Part shown: piece by piece, positions 5,794 through 38,971 of the stretch | How positions within the stretch are numbered: the stretch's first letter is position 1 | Layout of the letters: the number at the start of each line of letters is the position of its first letter | NCBI GenBank assembly: GCA_018829465.1 | Contig: JAHJTN010000018.1 | Location: 1 to 64,000 of the forward strand | From: Bacteroidota bacterium | GTDB taxonomy: Bacteria; Bacteroidota; Bacteroidia; Flavobacteriales; Flavobacteriaceae | DNA: 64,000 bases | Direction: 5' to 3' | Notes under the pieces: model-generated | The model's input: the letters and a program-made list of their open reading frames with translations, nothing else | Told to the model about the DNA's origin: nothing | Databases searched by the model: none | Translations under genes and position numbers: made by a program

Positions 5794-6110
5794 GTGGATA
5801 GATTTAAGTGGTTTAAAATTAGAGGTTTTCTTGATTAAAAAAAATATTTTTGAGCGAAACTCGGTTTTTAACAGTTTAAGATGGTCAAAACGTATGAAAA
5901 TATGTTAAATACTTGGAAAACATCGTACCCAATTCTTGAAATATAAAATCGATATTTTATCAGCTGTTACAAAATTATCAAAACGTTTATGCGGCGAATT
6001 GTTATCTTAGCCGAGTAAAAAATGATATTGAAATACGCATTTTATAAACCAACAAAACACATGTATTTCGATAAAATGGCACATAGGGACTGATACCGAA
6101 AAAATATAAA
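5794..6110. other. Intergenic leader region upstream of the cysteine desulfurase
   Basis: No gene is visible between yqgE and the repeat element. The region is A+T-rich and contains TATCTTAG at 6003-6010, which resembles the TAnnTTTG -7 element in variant form. A transcript starting there would carry roughly 190 bases of leader, including the whole inverted-repeat element, before the desulfurase ATG. Confidence 0.35.
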
Positions 6111-6209
6111 CAGATGAAACGCCCATGTAAAAATTTTGCACACAGGAGTATGATTATCATATGGCGTTCCATCTGACCTTTGAAAAACAATAAATATAAA
6201 CAGATGAAA
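6111..6209 (+). repeat. 90-bp inverted-repeat element ending at a start codon, copy A
   Basis: CAGATGAAACGCCCAT (6111-6126) is nearly mirrored by ATGGCGTTCCATCTG (6161-6175), giving a long stem around a loop containing ACACAGGAGT and ATGATTATC. An A-rich linker (6176-6200) then leads to a second CAGATGAAA (6201-6209) whose ATG is the start codon of the cysteine desulfurase. The distance between the two CAGATGAAA words is 90 bp. Two further copies on the opposite strand end in the same way at the DUF1080 gene (38721-38902). It could be a REP/MITE-like mobile repeat or a cis-acting leader structure; no matching transposase is present in the window. Confidence 0.8.
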
Positions 6210-7349
6210 GTTTACTTGGATAATGCTGCCACCACGGCACTCTACCCTGAGGTCATTGACAAAATCACTGAGACGCTCACCCAATGTTACGGAAATCCAT
6301 CTTCTACGCATGGTTTTGGAAGAACTGCCAAAACCTTGGTTGAAACTGCCCGTAAACAAATTGCACAATATTTTGGCGTGACTGCCCCCGAAATTATTTT
6401 CACATCTGGCGGCACAGAAACCGATAATTTGGTGTTGCAAAGTGCCGTCAGGTGCATGGGAATAAAACACATAATTACATCAAAAATTGAACACCACGCC
6501 GTGCTCCATACGGTAGAGGCTTTAGAAAAAGAGTTTCATGTCAACGTTTCGTATGTTCCTGTTGACAAATACGGAGAAATACACTATGAAATACTCGAAA
6601 GCCTTTTAAAGAATTCTACAGAGAAAACGCTTGTCAGTTTGATGCATATTAACAACGAGGTTGGCACTGTCTTAGACGTACATCGGGTTGGGCAGTTGTG
6701 TAAGGCACATCATGCTTTATTTCACTCAGATACCGTTCAATCTGTGGCACATTTTCCACTCAATTTTTCTGAAATTCCGGTAGATTTTGCTGTAGCAAGT
6801 GCGCATAAATTTCACGGGCCCAAAGGAGTGGGTTTTGCCTACATACGAAAGCATTCGGGTTTGAAACCGCTACTGTTGGGCGGTGAGCAAGAGCGCGGTT
6901 TGCGCGCCGGCACCGAAAGCGTACACAACATCGTAGGTATGGCAGAGGCCTTGCGTCTGTCTATTCAAAATATGGAAGAAGAATCGGCCTATATTGCTTC
7001 ATTAAAAAACTATTTTATACATCGTCTTAAAGAGTCAATCCCGCAGGTGATTATAAATGCGTGCTGTGAAAATCCTGAAAAAAGCACTTATACATTGGTA
7101 AATGTTCGTATTCCGCTCGAACCCAAAAAAGCATCTATATTGCTGTTTCATTTAGATTTAAACGGGATTGCTTGTTCCAAAGGCAGTGCATGCCAATCGG
7201 GGAGTGACAAGGGCTCGCACGTGTTGGCAGAAATTTTAGACGAAGAAACACAACTACATCCGTCGCTGCGTTTTTCATTTTCCAAATTCAACATGAAGGA
7301 AGAATTAGATTATGTCGTAGATGTTCTTAAAAAGTTTGTTGAAAGCTAG
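6204..7349 (+). CDS. Cysteine desulfurase (NifS/IscS family)
   Basis: Removes sulfur from L-cysteine as a persulfide for Fe-S clusters, thiolated tRNA or thiamine; PLP-dependent and cytosolic. With the ATG at 6204 the protein has 381 residues. YLDNAATT opens the protein, K202 in the SAHKFHGPKG motif binds PLP, and C330 in GSACQSG is the persulfide cysteine. An in-frame ATG 24 bases upstream exists but lies in the repeat linker, and family homology begins at MKVYLDNAATT. The gene stands alone without iscU or scaffold genes, so its acceptor is unknown. Its ATG AAA is the last part of a repeated element. Confidence 0.93.
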   Translation: MKVYLDNAATTALYPEVIDKITETLTQCYGNPSSTHGFGRTAKTLVETARKQIAQYFGVTAPEIIFTSGGTETDNLVLQSAVRCMGIKHIITSKIEHHAVLHTVEALEKEFHVNVSYVPVDKYGEIHYEILESLLKNSTEKTLVSLMHINNEVGTVLDVHRVGQLCKAHHALFHSDTVQSVAHFPLNFSEIPVDFAVASAHKFHGPKGVGFAYIRKHSGLKPLLLGGEQERGLRAGTESVHNIVGMAEALRLSIQNMEEESAYIASLKNYFIHRLKESIPQVIINACCENPEKSTYTLVNVRIPLEPKKASILLFHLDLNGIACSKGSACQSGSDKGSHVLAEILDEETQLHPSLRFSFSKFNMKEELDYVVDVLKKFVES

Positions 7350-17460: not shown

Positions 17461-17544
17461 AAATGCCTACTGGCTATTGGCTATTGGCTTTTGGCTAATG
17501 CCTATTGGCTATTGGCTATTGGCTTTTGGCTAATGCCTTTTGCC
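17461..17544. repeat. Heptamer tandem repeat (TATTGGC family)
   Basis: Twelve consecutive heptamers of the form TWWTGGC or TWWTGCC, such as TATTGGC, TTTTGGC and TAATGCC, fill the gap between the kinase and 2TM genes. A higher-order period of five heptamers is visible. The upstream flank holds TTAACGAATAAC and CGTTTAACA. The same combination occurs in opposite orientation at 40025-40200. It lies inside an operon, so it would be transcribed. It does not have the repeat-spacer form of CRISPR. Confidence 0.85.
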
Positions 17545-17552
17545 TTAATTGT

Positions 17553-37976: not shown

Positions 37977-38723
37977 CTACGGAAGTTCCTTGATTTTTAT
38001 ATTTCTAAACCAGACTTTATCGCCGTGGTCTTGAAGCCCAATTTTGCCGGTAGCAGTTTTGGCAAATGCACGCCAGGTTGCAAATTTTGATGCCGCAACC
38101 ATTTTTTCCCAAGCTTCGCCGTGAAGCGGAAATGAAATAGCGTGTTTGCCGTTAATGTTCAATTTACCCAAGTTTTTGTTGTGATCTATTTCCAATTCGT
38201 ACAAATTCCATTCGCCTGCCGGTTTTACCAAACCACTCGGAGCTGCTATCATATCATACAAAGAGCCGGCTTTGTGTGTGGTTCCATTTTTAGCATCCGG
38301 ATGTCTCTCGTCATCTAAAATTTGAATTTCGGCACCGGTTTCATAGGCTTCGGGAAATTCGGGAGATTCCTGCACGCCCCAAAACAATCCGCTATTGCCG
38401 CCTTCGGAAATTTTCCATTCGAGTGAAAGCACAAAATTTGTATAGGTCTTGTCTGTGACGAGATTGTTGCCTCGCTTGGATTCGGGTGTGGGGTTAAAAA
38501 CCATCGCGCCGTCTTCTATCTGCCATTCGGGCGAAACGCCTTCTTTGAGATACAAATGCCAACCGTCGAATGATTTTCCGTTAAAAAGTGGTGTCCAAGA
38601 TTGCTCGTTATCAGTTGTTTGCATAGTCTTAATTTCTGAAATTTCAGTTTTATTTGATTTTTTATTGTCTTGACAAGCGGTACAAGCCATCAAGAATACG
38701 AGGATTAAAGTCAAGTTTTTCAT
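37977..38723 (-). CDS. DUF1080 (3-keto-disaccharide hydrolase) lipoprotein
   Basis: Predicted periplasmic hydrolase of 248 residues. A lipoprotein signal ends at C14 or C17 (LMACTAC). The rest is one DUF1080 domain with WTPLFNGKSFDGW at the start of the fold, and the SGLFWGVQE, YETGAEIQILDDE and AGSLYD motifs. DUF1080 proteins are known to split 3-keto-glycosides in the glycoside 3-oxidation pathway, which fits the GMC oxidoreductase, isomerases and dehydrogenase nearby. The ATG AAA is the end of a repeated 90-bp inverted-repeat element that occurs here as a tandem pair upstream. Confidence 0.88.
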   Translation of the reverse strand: MKNLTLILVFLMACTACQDNKKSNKTEISEIKTMQTTDNEQSWTPLFNGKSFDGWHLYLKEGVSPEWQIEDGAMVFNPTPESKRGNNLVTDKTYTNFVLSLEWKISEGGNSGLFWGVQESPEFPEAYETGAEIQILDDERHPDAKNGTTHKAGSLYDMIAAPSGLVKPAGEWNLYELEIDHNKNLGKLNINGKHAISFPLHGEAWEKMVAASKFATWRAFAKTATGKIGLQDHGDKVWFRNIKIKELP

Positions 38724-38902
38724 CTGTTTATATTATTTGTTTTTGTCGGTCAGATGGAACACCCTAGGATAATCATACTCCTGTGTGTCAATAATTTTGC
38801 ATGGGCGTTTCATCTGTTTATATTTATTGTTTTTAAGTGGTCAGATGGAACACCCTAACTCATCATGCCCCTGTGTGCAAAATTTTTACATGGGTGTTTC
38901 AT
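38721..38902 (-). repeat. Tandem pair of the 90-bp inverted-repeat element, copies B and C
   Basis: Read on the minus strand, copy C (stem within 38902-38842) and copy B (38816-38751) follow each other with the same linker as copy A. The CAGATG words bounding copy B lie 90 bases apart (38811 and 38721), and the final CAGATGAAA provides the DUF1080 start codon. The stem pair varies consistently: G-C in copy A, G-U in copy B, A-U in copy C. Copy C has lost the CTG of its outer CATCTG. The conserved loop contains ACACAGGRGY and ATGAT. Either a mobile REP-like repeat or a transferable leader structure. Confidence 0.8.
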
Positions 38903-38971
38903 TTTATATATTTTAAATTTTTATTTTTTATAATTGAAAATTCATCATTCGAAAATCATCAACCCTCAATC

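Follow-up and report, generated by a model that had tools for sequence, protein, structure and literature searches.

A hairpin element of approximately 90 bp in Flavobacteriaceae that probably inserts after ATGAAA and regenerates the start codon

INTRODUCTION

Mobile DNA usually harms or avoids genes. The byp elements of yeast mitochondria are small mobile hairpins that lie inside coding regions and are skipped by the ribosome. Thermometers and translational riboswitches, in which an anti-start sequence sequesters the start region, are not mobile and are found at functionally related genes.

According to the sections of PMC6006769 drawn upon here, REPs lie largely between genes, bear a 5' GT[AG]G tag and often have a cognate tnpA beside the copies, whereas the Bacteroidetes REP subclass 2.6 shows atypical flanking structures instead of the tag. 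In IS200/IS605 elements, as presented in the same sections, the target flanks one end, the ends are hairpins, and recognition takes place by guide pairing (PMC6006769).

Here we describe a repeated unit found before a cysteine desulfurase gene in a 64,000-nucleotide stretch of a Flavobacteriaceae genome (contig JAHJTN010000018.1, positions 1 to 64,000), hereafter called the window. Like the REP/REPIN sequences associated with RAYT (TnpA-REP), the unit is a short palindromic repeat with many copies and tandem clusters. Unlike them, it sits on start codons (37/41 arrays in its own genome and 27/29 in a second one) instead of being extragenic and away from starts, it lacks the GT[AG]G tag, its 5' foot being ATGAAA in 78/82 copies, and no scanned tnpA was flanked by it (32 Y1 loci; the one neighbor, at L080, lies at ∼0.8 kb and has palindromes of its own). 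With an IS200/IS605 derivative it would share the fixed target at the left end (ATGAAA in 78/82), the folded hairpin and the pairing between end and guide. However, no transposase was found with it, its foot is on the 3' side, the target is regenerated at the right end, it is located on start codons, and the Y1 loci read or scanned contained no autonomous copy with its ends. In contrast to a MITE of a DDE transposon, it has neither TIRs nor a variable target duplication, both ends consisting of the same fixed hexamer in direct orientation. As do byp elements, it lands in genes without destroying them, but, unlike byp, it supplies a new start codon. Finally, it resembles the start-sequestering RNAs of 5' untranslated regions in having an anti-start sequence that pairs with the start region, and differs from them in being mobile and in preceding unrelated genes. 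A search of 14 loci against Rfam 15 (E values up to 5) gave four matches, none overlapping the unit, and no description of such an element was found in open-licence full texts. We place the unit among the short mobile palindromic repeats.

RESULTS AND DISCUSSION

Anatomy of the unit in the window

A preliminary description, made from the letters of the window, had claimed a 65-base stem-loop before the desulfurase gene. It was present at positions 6111 to 6175, with both arms exactly where they had been placed. The 5' arm of this basal hairpin, CAGATGAAACGCCCAT (6111..6126, plus strand), includes the left ATGAAA followed by CGCCC, and the 3' arm, ATGGCGTTCCATCTG (6161..6175, plus strand), is supported by the letters, the fold and the count of arm pairs given below. 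The limits of the unit were refined to run from ATGAAA to ATGAAA, ∼90 bp in all; the CAG that precedes the left ATGAAA shows no conservation and belongs either to the host or to a previous unit. The left hexamer (6114..6119, plus strand) would be the insertion target and of host origin, judging from the 78/82 left hexamers that read ATGAAA and from empty sites in congeners. It possibly derives from an earlier unit at 6080..6113 (plus strand; CTGATACCGAAAAAATATAAACAG), a stretch that by eye could be the decayed right end of an older unit.

The foot motif CATCTG-ACC occupies 6170..6178 (plus strand); its CAT can pair with the left ATG, and its CATCTG with the CAGATG at the new start. The A-rich linker or leader of 25 nt (6179..6203, plus strand) was likewise where the preliminary description had put it; it ends in CAG and has a mean A content of 0.63 in 72 copies. 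The junction CAGATGAAA was also found as claimed, at 6201-6209, and includes the right ATGAAA (6204..6209, plus strand), which is carried by the element, being still ATGAAA where the left hexamer differs (L053 and L049), and now forms codons 1 and 2 of the gene. The ATG at 6204, correctly taken as the start of the cysteine desulfurase, opens a 381-aa NifS/IscS-like protein (gene at 6204..7349, plus strand; Pfam Aminotran_5, E value of 1.5e-77), the host gene at this insertion, whose top NCBIfam match is NifS (E value of 1.3e-111, under the curated cut-off). The folded 105 nt had a z score of -3.1, and the foot word, with up to three mismatches, occurred three times in the window versus 0.04 expected by chance.

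The same junction had been reported at an unrelated DUF1080 gene, and there the minus-strand ATGAAA at 38723 indeed opens a 3-keto-disaccharide hydrolase (DUF1080; 37977..38723, minus strand; Pfam PF06439, E value of 1.3e-47). This start is the last ATGAAA of a tandem array of two units with a period of ∼90 (38718..38905, minus strand), in which the left hexamer lies at 38902-38897, the shared one at 38813-38808 and the right one at 38723-38718. The arms at this site, CGCCC/GGGTG and CACCC/GGGTG, differ from those at the desulfurase gene.

Copies in the genome of the window

The genome to which the window belongs (3.07 Mb, 55 contigs) was searched by BLAST with the unit, 40 of 134 candidates being scored in a first pass. 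At least 69 matches were obtained; the best copy other than the query itself was 97% identical, and 54 of the 69 ended exactly at window position 6209, the last A of ATGAAA. Thirty-seven stretches were fetched around the listed clusters and 41 arrays were inspected, a count that omits at least three arrays of this genome (C12:25, C16:79169 and one in L053 at 2687).

Thirty-seven of the 41 arrays ended on the start codon of a gene. In 36 of them the last hexamer (ATGAAA, once ATGAAT) opened an ORF of at least 98 codons, and in the remaining one, L035, a decayed extra unit was followed by such a start. As for the exceptions, in L038 the hexamer lay 4 nt ahead of the real start of a sufC-like gene, in L059 the unit was within a lipoprotein frame and in frame on both sides, and in L053 it followed AAGAAA near the 3' end of the coding sequence of a transporter-like gene (these three genes being named by eye). 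In L049 the unit came after GTGAAA, and 64 nt separated it from the next ORF. No Pfam family matched the interrupted lipoprotein frame, and its two NCBIfam matches, one of them over 1-81, were sub-threshold. When flank sequence was shuffled, none of 134 ATGAAA hexamers opened 60 codons.

The genome-wide survey of what follows the final ATGAAA, proposed in the preliminary description, placed 37/41 arrays of this genome and 27/29 of another genus at starts. This is the opposite of a distribution mainly away from start codons, which that description had named as the outcome that would speak against it, and its suggestion that the unit may carry its own translation start context was borne out for the start codon and the leader, with the junction recurring throughout the genome. 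Its reasoning that two landings on a start codon would be rare for a mobile repeat was not supported: the unit is evidently mobile, and it lands on start codons because its target hexamer, ATGAAA, is a common gene start. The genes behind the copies include 3-isopropylmalate dehydrogenase-, PRA isomerase-, TatC-, threonine synthase-, exonuclease- and RpiB-like genes.

A different palindromic repeat, for instance CCTGTGCTGAGCGCAGTCGAAG, was observed inside the foot of the unit in L035, L036, L039, L046, L047, L053, L056, L064 and L065. In 10 units from these nine own-genome loci, the foreign palindrome sits between the CAT and the CATGACC of the foot. Other palindromes lie at or beside the same position of the foot in other genera (L336 of genome G127, L228, L232, L252, L231 and L254). 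REP insertions thus seem to be concentrated at the foot.

Insertion and empty sites

Among copies with a recognized body, 78 of 82 left hexamers were ATGAAA, positions -9 to -7 were not conserved, and the left flank of first units was unique up to the hexamer. The right end stayed ATGAAA in L053, with AAGAAA at the left, and in L049, with GTGAAA, and the right hexamer is accordingly the element's own. Thirty-one right-end matches (versus 115 kept; distinct bodies) lacked an exact ATGAAA 44 to 66 nt before the foot, and some of these showed variants or inserts.

Of the 36 downstream genes, 33 had a homologue in the two other genomes of the genus. No foot-like word was present within 150 nt upstream of 53 of the 55 congener starts, and 33 of the 55 began with ATGAAA; the other two starts had a loose foot-like word with no full unit and were judged by eye to be chance. 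The upstream flank of the L045 gene is similar in a congener, and by eye the unit is placed exactly after the ATGAAA. Some congener homologues begin differently, such as xth (ATGACAAAGAAA) and the L058 gene, and therefore a gene can obtain a first codon from the element that it did not have before. Both congener genomes bear related units, mostly with another body, at different gene starts (by eye). On the evidence of near-identical copies, tandem arrays and empty sites in the two congeners, the unit is mobile.

In three species of Winogradskyella (L204, L219 and L233), the same element was seen by eye before what seems to be the same gene, with differing loop bases, the searched motif being fixed. 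Because the site seems to be the same in the three species, some insertions seem to be old and inherited.

Background of ATGAAA at gene starts

The frequency of ATGAAA at starts was estimated in 36 own-genome sequences (the window plus 35 of the 37 fetched stretches) with crude ORF calls. Of the non-coding ATGAAA hexamers, 57% were starts or near-starts, a proportion that rose to 78% when only those in the sense of the next gene were counted; the corresponding values for the loci of G127, also with crude ORF calls, were 72% and 77%. Non-coding insertions were at or next to starts in 38/39 cases in the own genome and in 27/29 in G127, an excess over sense-strand non-coding ATGAAA with binomial p values of 9e-4 and 0.02, respectively. 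This finer background gave a smaller start-codon excess than a first, cruder count. The start bias mostly fits the target hexamer, the sense orientation and the loss of gene-breaking insertions, and a modest excess remains.

Distribution in other genomes

A pattern for the right half of the unit (CATSTGRCC, 14 to 26 bases, ACASATGAAA) was searched in a sample of the family with one genome per genus, the own genome included. It was present in 58 of 199 genera, while the reversed control gave 0. In a sample of the phylum it was found in 19 of 395 genomes, against one match for the reversed control; no fewer than two of these genomes probably matched by chance (e.g., L296 and L297), and one genome from another family of the same class, G393, held 30 copies. 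Among 30 copies from the family sample, 25 opened an ORF of at least 60 aa; a recount gave 23, two copies having been classed as tandem under a loose criterion.

The complete genome G127, from another genus, gave 33 BLAST matches, of which 30 were fetched, forming 29 arrays; 27 of these were at a gene start, the exceptions being L310 and L332, with L336 counted by the start after its REP-carrying unit. The flanks left of the hexamer differed among these copies, the query having held just five flank bases. In G112 and in G143, 15 of 17 copies opened an ORF of at least 60 aa.

In named genomes a stricter pattern gave 61 stretches, from a scan that may omit records near the window's species. The genera with the unit include Winogradskyella, Arenibacter, Lutibacter, Psychroflexus, Xanthomarina, Galbibacter, Aquimarina, Seonamhaeicola and Paucihalobacter. 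Of 63 copies, 53 opened an ORF of at least 60 aa, five were followed by another unit, one was cut by the end of the locus and four were short. A Sulfurovum MAG contig (L225, NORP62) and a Lutibacter MAG contig (L261, NORP71) carry a nearly identical locus, which suggests that the NORP62 contig is mis-binned.

Viral contigs gave five matches, two of which were judged chance (L265 and L266). The other three (L267, L268 and L269, from IMG/VR) showed the anatomy of the unit at the starts of phage genes, the left hexamer being ATGAAC in one case, and phages could be carriers of the unit. Some of the hairpins in these three are very short, and by eye the genes are tail-like, decoration-like and amidase-like.

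Paired structure and covariation

The 115 right-end matches kept, after the 31 without ATGAAA had been set aside, were reduced to 72 non-redundant copies, of which one was dropped, leaving 71. In these, the five bases after the left ATGAAA were compared with a second block of five, whose last base lies three before the foot. There were 34 distinct pairs of arms, 132 of 170 cells were standard pairs, and 15 pairs were fully complementary, among them CGCCC/GGGCG, CATCC/GGATG, CTTCC/GGAAG, TAGTC/GACTA and CACCT/AGGTG; when the arms were slid by one or two bases, none was fully paired. Several other pairs of arms contained tandem G-A pairs (TGAGC/GCGAA and CGAGC/GCGAA). These comparisons show that compensatory change in the arms maintains the basal hairpin.

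The RNAalifold analysis called for in the preliminary description recovered one part of the structure: in a sequence alignment of 65 copies, the pairing between foot and right end was the only one found, and the basal hairpin was absent because the arms do not align by sequence, so the case for that hairpin is made by the arm-pair count. In the pattern CATNTG/CANATG both N positions are free and the other five pairs are fixed. This free pair was Watson-Crick in 136 of 150 cases among the matches listed (from 13/25 genomes), with 53 C-G, 74 G-C, 5 A-T and 4 T-A, plus two wobble and 12 neither; A-T was found in two genera and T-A in four. Shuffled pairs gave a mean of 62 Watson-Crick and a maximum of 84, a significance that is overstated because copies within one genome are related. 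Among the matches listed, the feature of a translational switch, pairing over the start codon, was thus present by the free pair in these 136 of 150 cases and with all four pair types, and the sequences show the free foot/right-end pair, which would cover the new start codon, to covary.

Genomes differed in how diverged their copies were. Median body identities of 0.84 in G000 and 0.88 in G127 make these copies look recent, while the copies of G143 (0.66; shuffled, 0.58) and G112 (0.61; shuffled, 0.57) are diverged. When each copy's own arms were compared with arms from other copies, permutations as good as the real pairing numbered 0/2,000 in G143, 0/2,000 in G112, 0 in G000 and 158/2,000 in G127, in which own arms are not clearly better because the copies are near-identical. 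In G143 and G112, either many unlike families arrived or the structure was maintained in place.

Folding prediction for the 72 copies gave the new start codon a mean unpaired value of 0.26, versus 0.45 with a shuffled body, a pairing that is largely by construction because the motif is fixed in the pattern used to select these copies. Concealment of the old start with exposure of the new one was also considered and rejected, the prediction being the opposite (unpaired, 0.36 for the old and 0.26 for the new; shuffled, 0.48 and 0.45), again partly by construction.

Candidates for the mobilizing enzyme

A Y1 transposase was considered as the mobilizer and searched for in the own genome and 25 others; it was set aside, given that no common ends were found in the loci read or scanned and several genomes rich in the unit had no Y1. 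Eleven of 17 rich genomes and 7 of 8 other element-bearing genomes had matches to Y1. There was none in the remaining 6 rich genomes (including G143 and G112) nor in Lutibacter NORP71, although the strict pattern matched 15 times in the latter. The own genome has two RAYT-like genes, one of them over the cut-off, with other palindromes beside them. The right end of the unit was absent from all 16 Y1 loci read. When 32 Y1 loci were scanned (2 from the own genome and 30 from others), the unit was in the fetched flank of L080 only. This locus (C36:288075-291410, own genome) is a trp-like cluster with the element before a trpF-like gene and a RAYT-like gene after it; the latter is unrelated, with its own ACCTGTGAGGT-type palindromes, ∼0.8 kb from the trpF insertion.

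Two further enzymes were discarded among 10 genomes tested: a reverse transcriptase, missing in 3 (G008, G143 and NORP71), and IS110, missing in 4 (G000, G143, G112 and G397). G143 lacks all three. No long, protein-coding version of the element was seen. The logic of the ends resembles the guide pairing of IS200/IS605, and membership of that family is not supported by our analysis.

Proposed mechanism and alternative explanations

We consider it probable that the unit is a non-autonomous mobile element of ∼90 bp whose insertion behind ATGAAA restores the start codon. The comparison of sequences shows it directly 3' of a host ATGAAA, usually the start and second codons, with the host gene starting again on the ATGAAA in which the element ends. 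The bases after the old ATGAAA form a hairpin with the 3' arm of the element, as the compensatory changes in the arms show, and the old ATG may close its base by pairing with the CAT of the foot, both sides being invariant or fixed by the search. The CATNTG of the foot is also complementary to the CANATG of the right end, the site of the new start codon, where the free pair covaries. Shared hexamers suggest that tandem arrays form because the right end regenerates the target for further copies. Copies would pile up at starts because coding insertions break genes and are lost while those at starts are tolerated, which fits the ATGAAA background. The pairing between foot and right end most likely serves the single-strand recognition of end and target by a helper enzyme during transposition, and once transcribed it could also modulate how accessible the new start codon is. 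With a covarying pair over the new start and arms kept in diverged copies, a role of the unit as a leader structure is plausible.

What the pairing is for is the point on which the main alternatives diverge. One of them, which we hold as tentative, is a cis-acting RNA switch, mobile and kept for the regulation of translation, in which CATNTG pairs either with the old start, leaving the new one free, or with the new start, which is sequestered, under the control of, for example, uORF translation, temperature or a protein. The covariation of the free pair favors it, and so do G112 and G143, whose bodies are nearly unrelated and whose own arms nevertheless beat those of other copies in every permutation; paired arms in these diverged copies are not predicted by a purely selfish, decaying element. 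An A at -3 and low structure favor initiation in Flavobacterium johnsoniae, according to the part of PMC6847099 drawn upon here. The 29 BLAST-found G127 copies with the right end in view have, by eye, C at -3, and because this departs from the favored A (PMC6847099, same part), the right-end triplet may be kept for pairing, the leader perhaps not being simply optimized for translation. Against this, the C at -3 in 72/72 pattern-picked copies is, like the predicted pairing of the new start, largely by construction, the named downstream genes have no common function, the copies of G000 and G127 look recent, and the own arms of G127 do no clearly better than those of other copies (158/2,000), as expected for near-identical copies. 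An in-frame stop within six codons of the old ATG, present in 41/71 copies, would suit a switch, but selection for early stops was rejected as weak: they occur in 18/71 copies in the +2 frame and in 71/71 in the +1 frame, where ATGA forces them, and per arm type the in-frame count is 11/23.

Equally tentative is the reading of the unit as a passenger, with no RNA function, of a single-strand system of the HUH/Y1 type (IS200/IS605- or REP-like), with the foot as the guide for cleavage after ATGAAA. The fixed orientation, the target hexamer at one end, the hairpin and the pairing of foot and end are as it would predict, guide pairing recognizes the ends of IS200/IS605 (PMC6006769, in the sections cited), and Y1 genes are abundant in several rich genomes. 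However, Y1 was matched neither in six of the 17 rich genomes nor in Lutibacter NORP71, the Y1 genes read have other repeats at their flanks, and the guide of IS200/REP is 5' of the hairpin foot (PMC6006769, same sections), whereas here it is at the 3' foot. Translational bypassing, with initiation at the old ATGAAA and a hop of the ribosome to the second one, as in the byp elements of yeast, is very improbable. It would account for the matching end hexamers, the hairpin right after the first, the early stops in many arm types and the insertion inside a lipoprotein frame open on both sides, but no hop is required at start codons, and 12/12 copies of the CGCCC type have no in-frame stop within six codons. 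That a common repeat met common gene starts by coincidence has practically no probability left; ATGAAA is indeed frequent as a gene start, but the start counts and the 0/134 shuffled flanks refute it.

The element would enter the most sensitive spot of a gene and repair the start in one step, and for this reason its accumulation before biosynthetic and housekeeping-type genes is possible. In Bacteroidota, translation starts without Shine-Dalgarno pairing, and A-rich, weakly structured leaders are favored (PMC6847099, in the part drawn upon here); this mode of initiation may make such a start cassette possible. One leader on dozens of genes per genome, with empty sites in sister species, amounts to a natural replicated experiment that could be used to measure how leader structure sets translation in Bacteroidota, and the element may point to a new transposition enzyme. 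It seems to us rather unlikely that these units are translational switches that form a mobile class of their own, targeting gene starts, substituting their start codon for that of the gene and bringing dozens of unrelated genes of one cell under the control of competing hairpins, and that in some genera they have become old, diverged, structurally maintained and domesticated regulators derived from a mobile element.

Elsewhere in the window, positions 17462-17545 hold a short tandem repeat of TTGGCTA-type heptamers.
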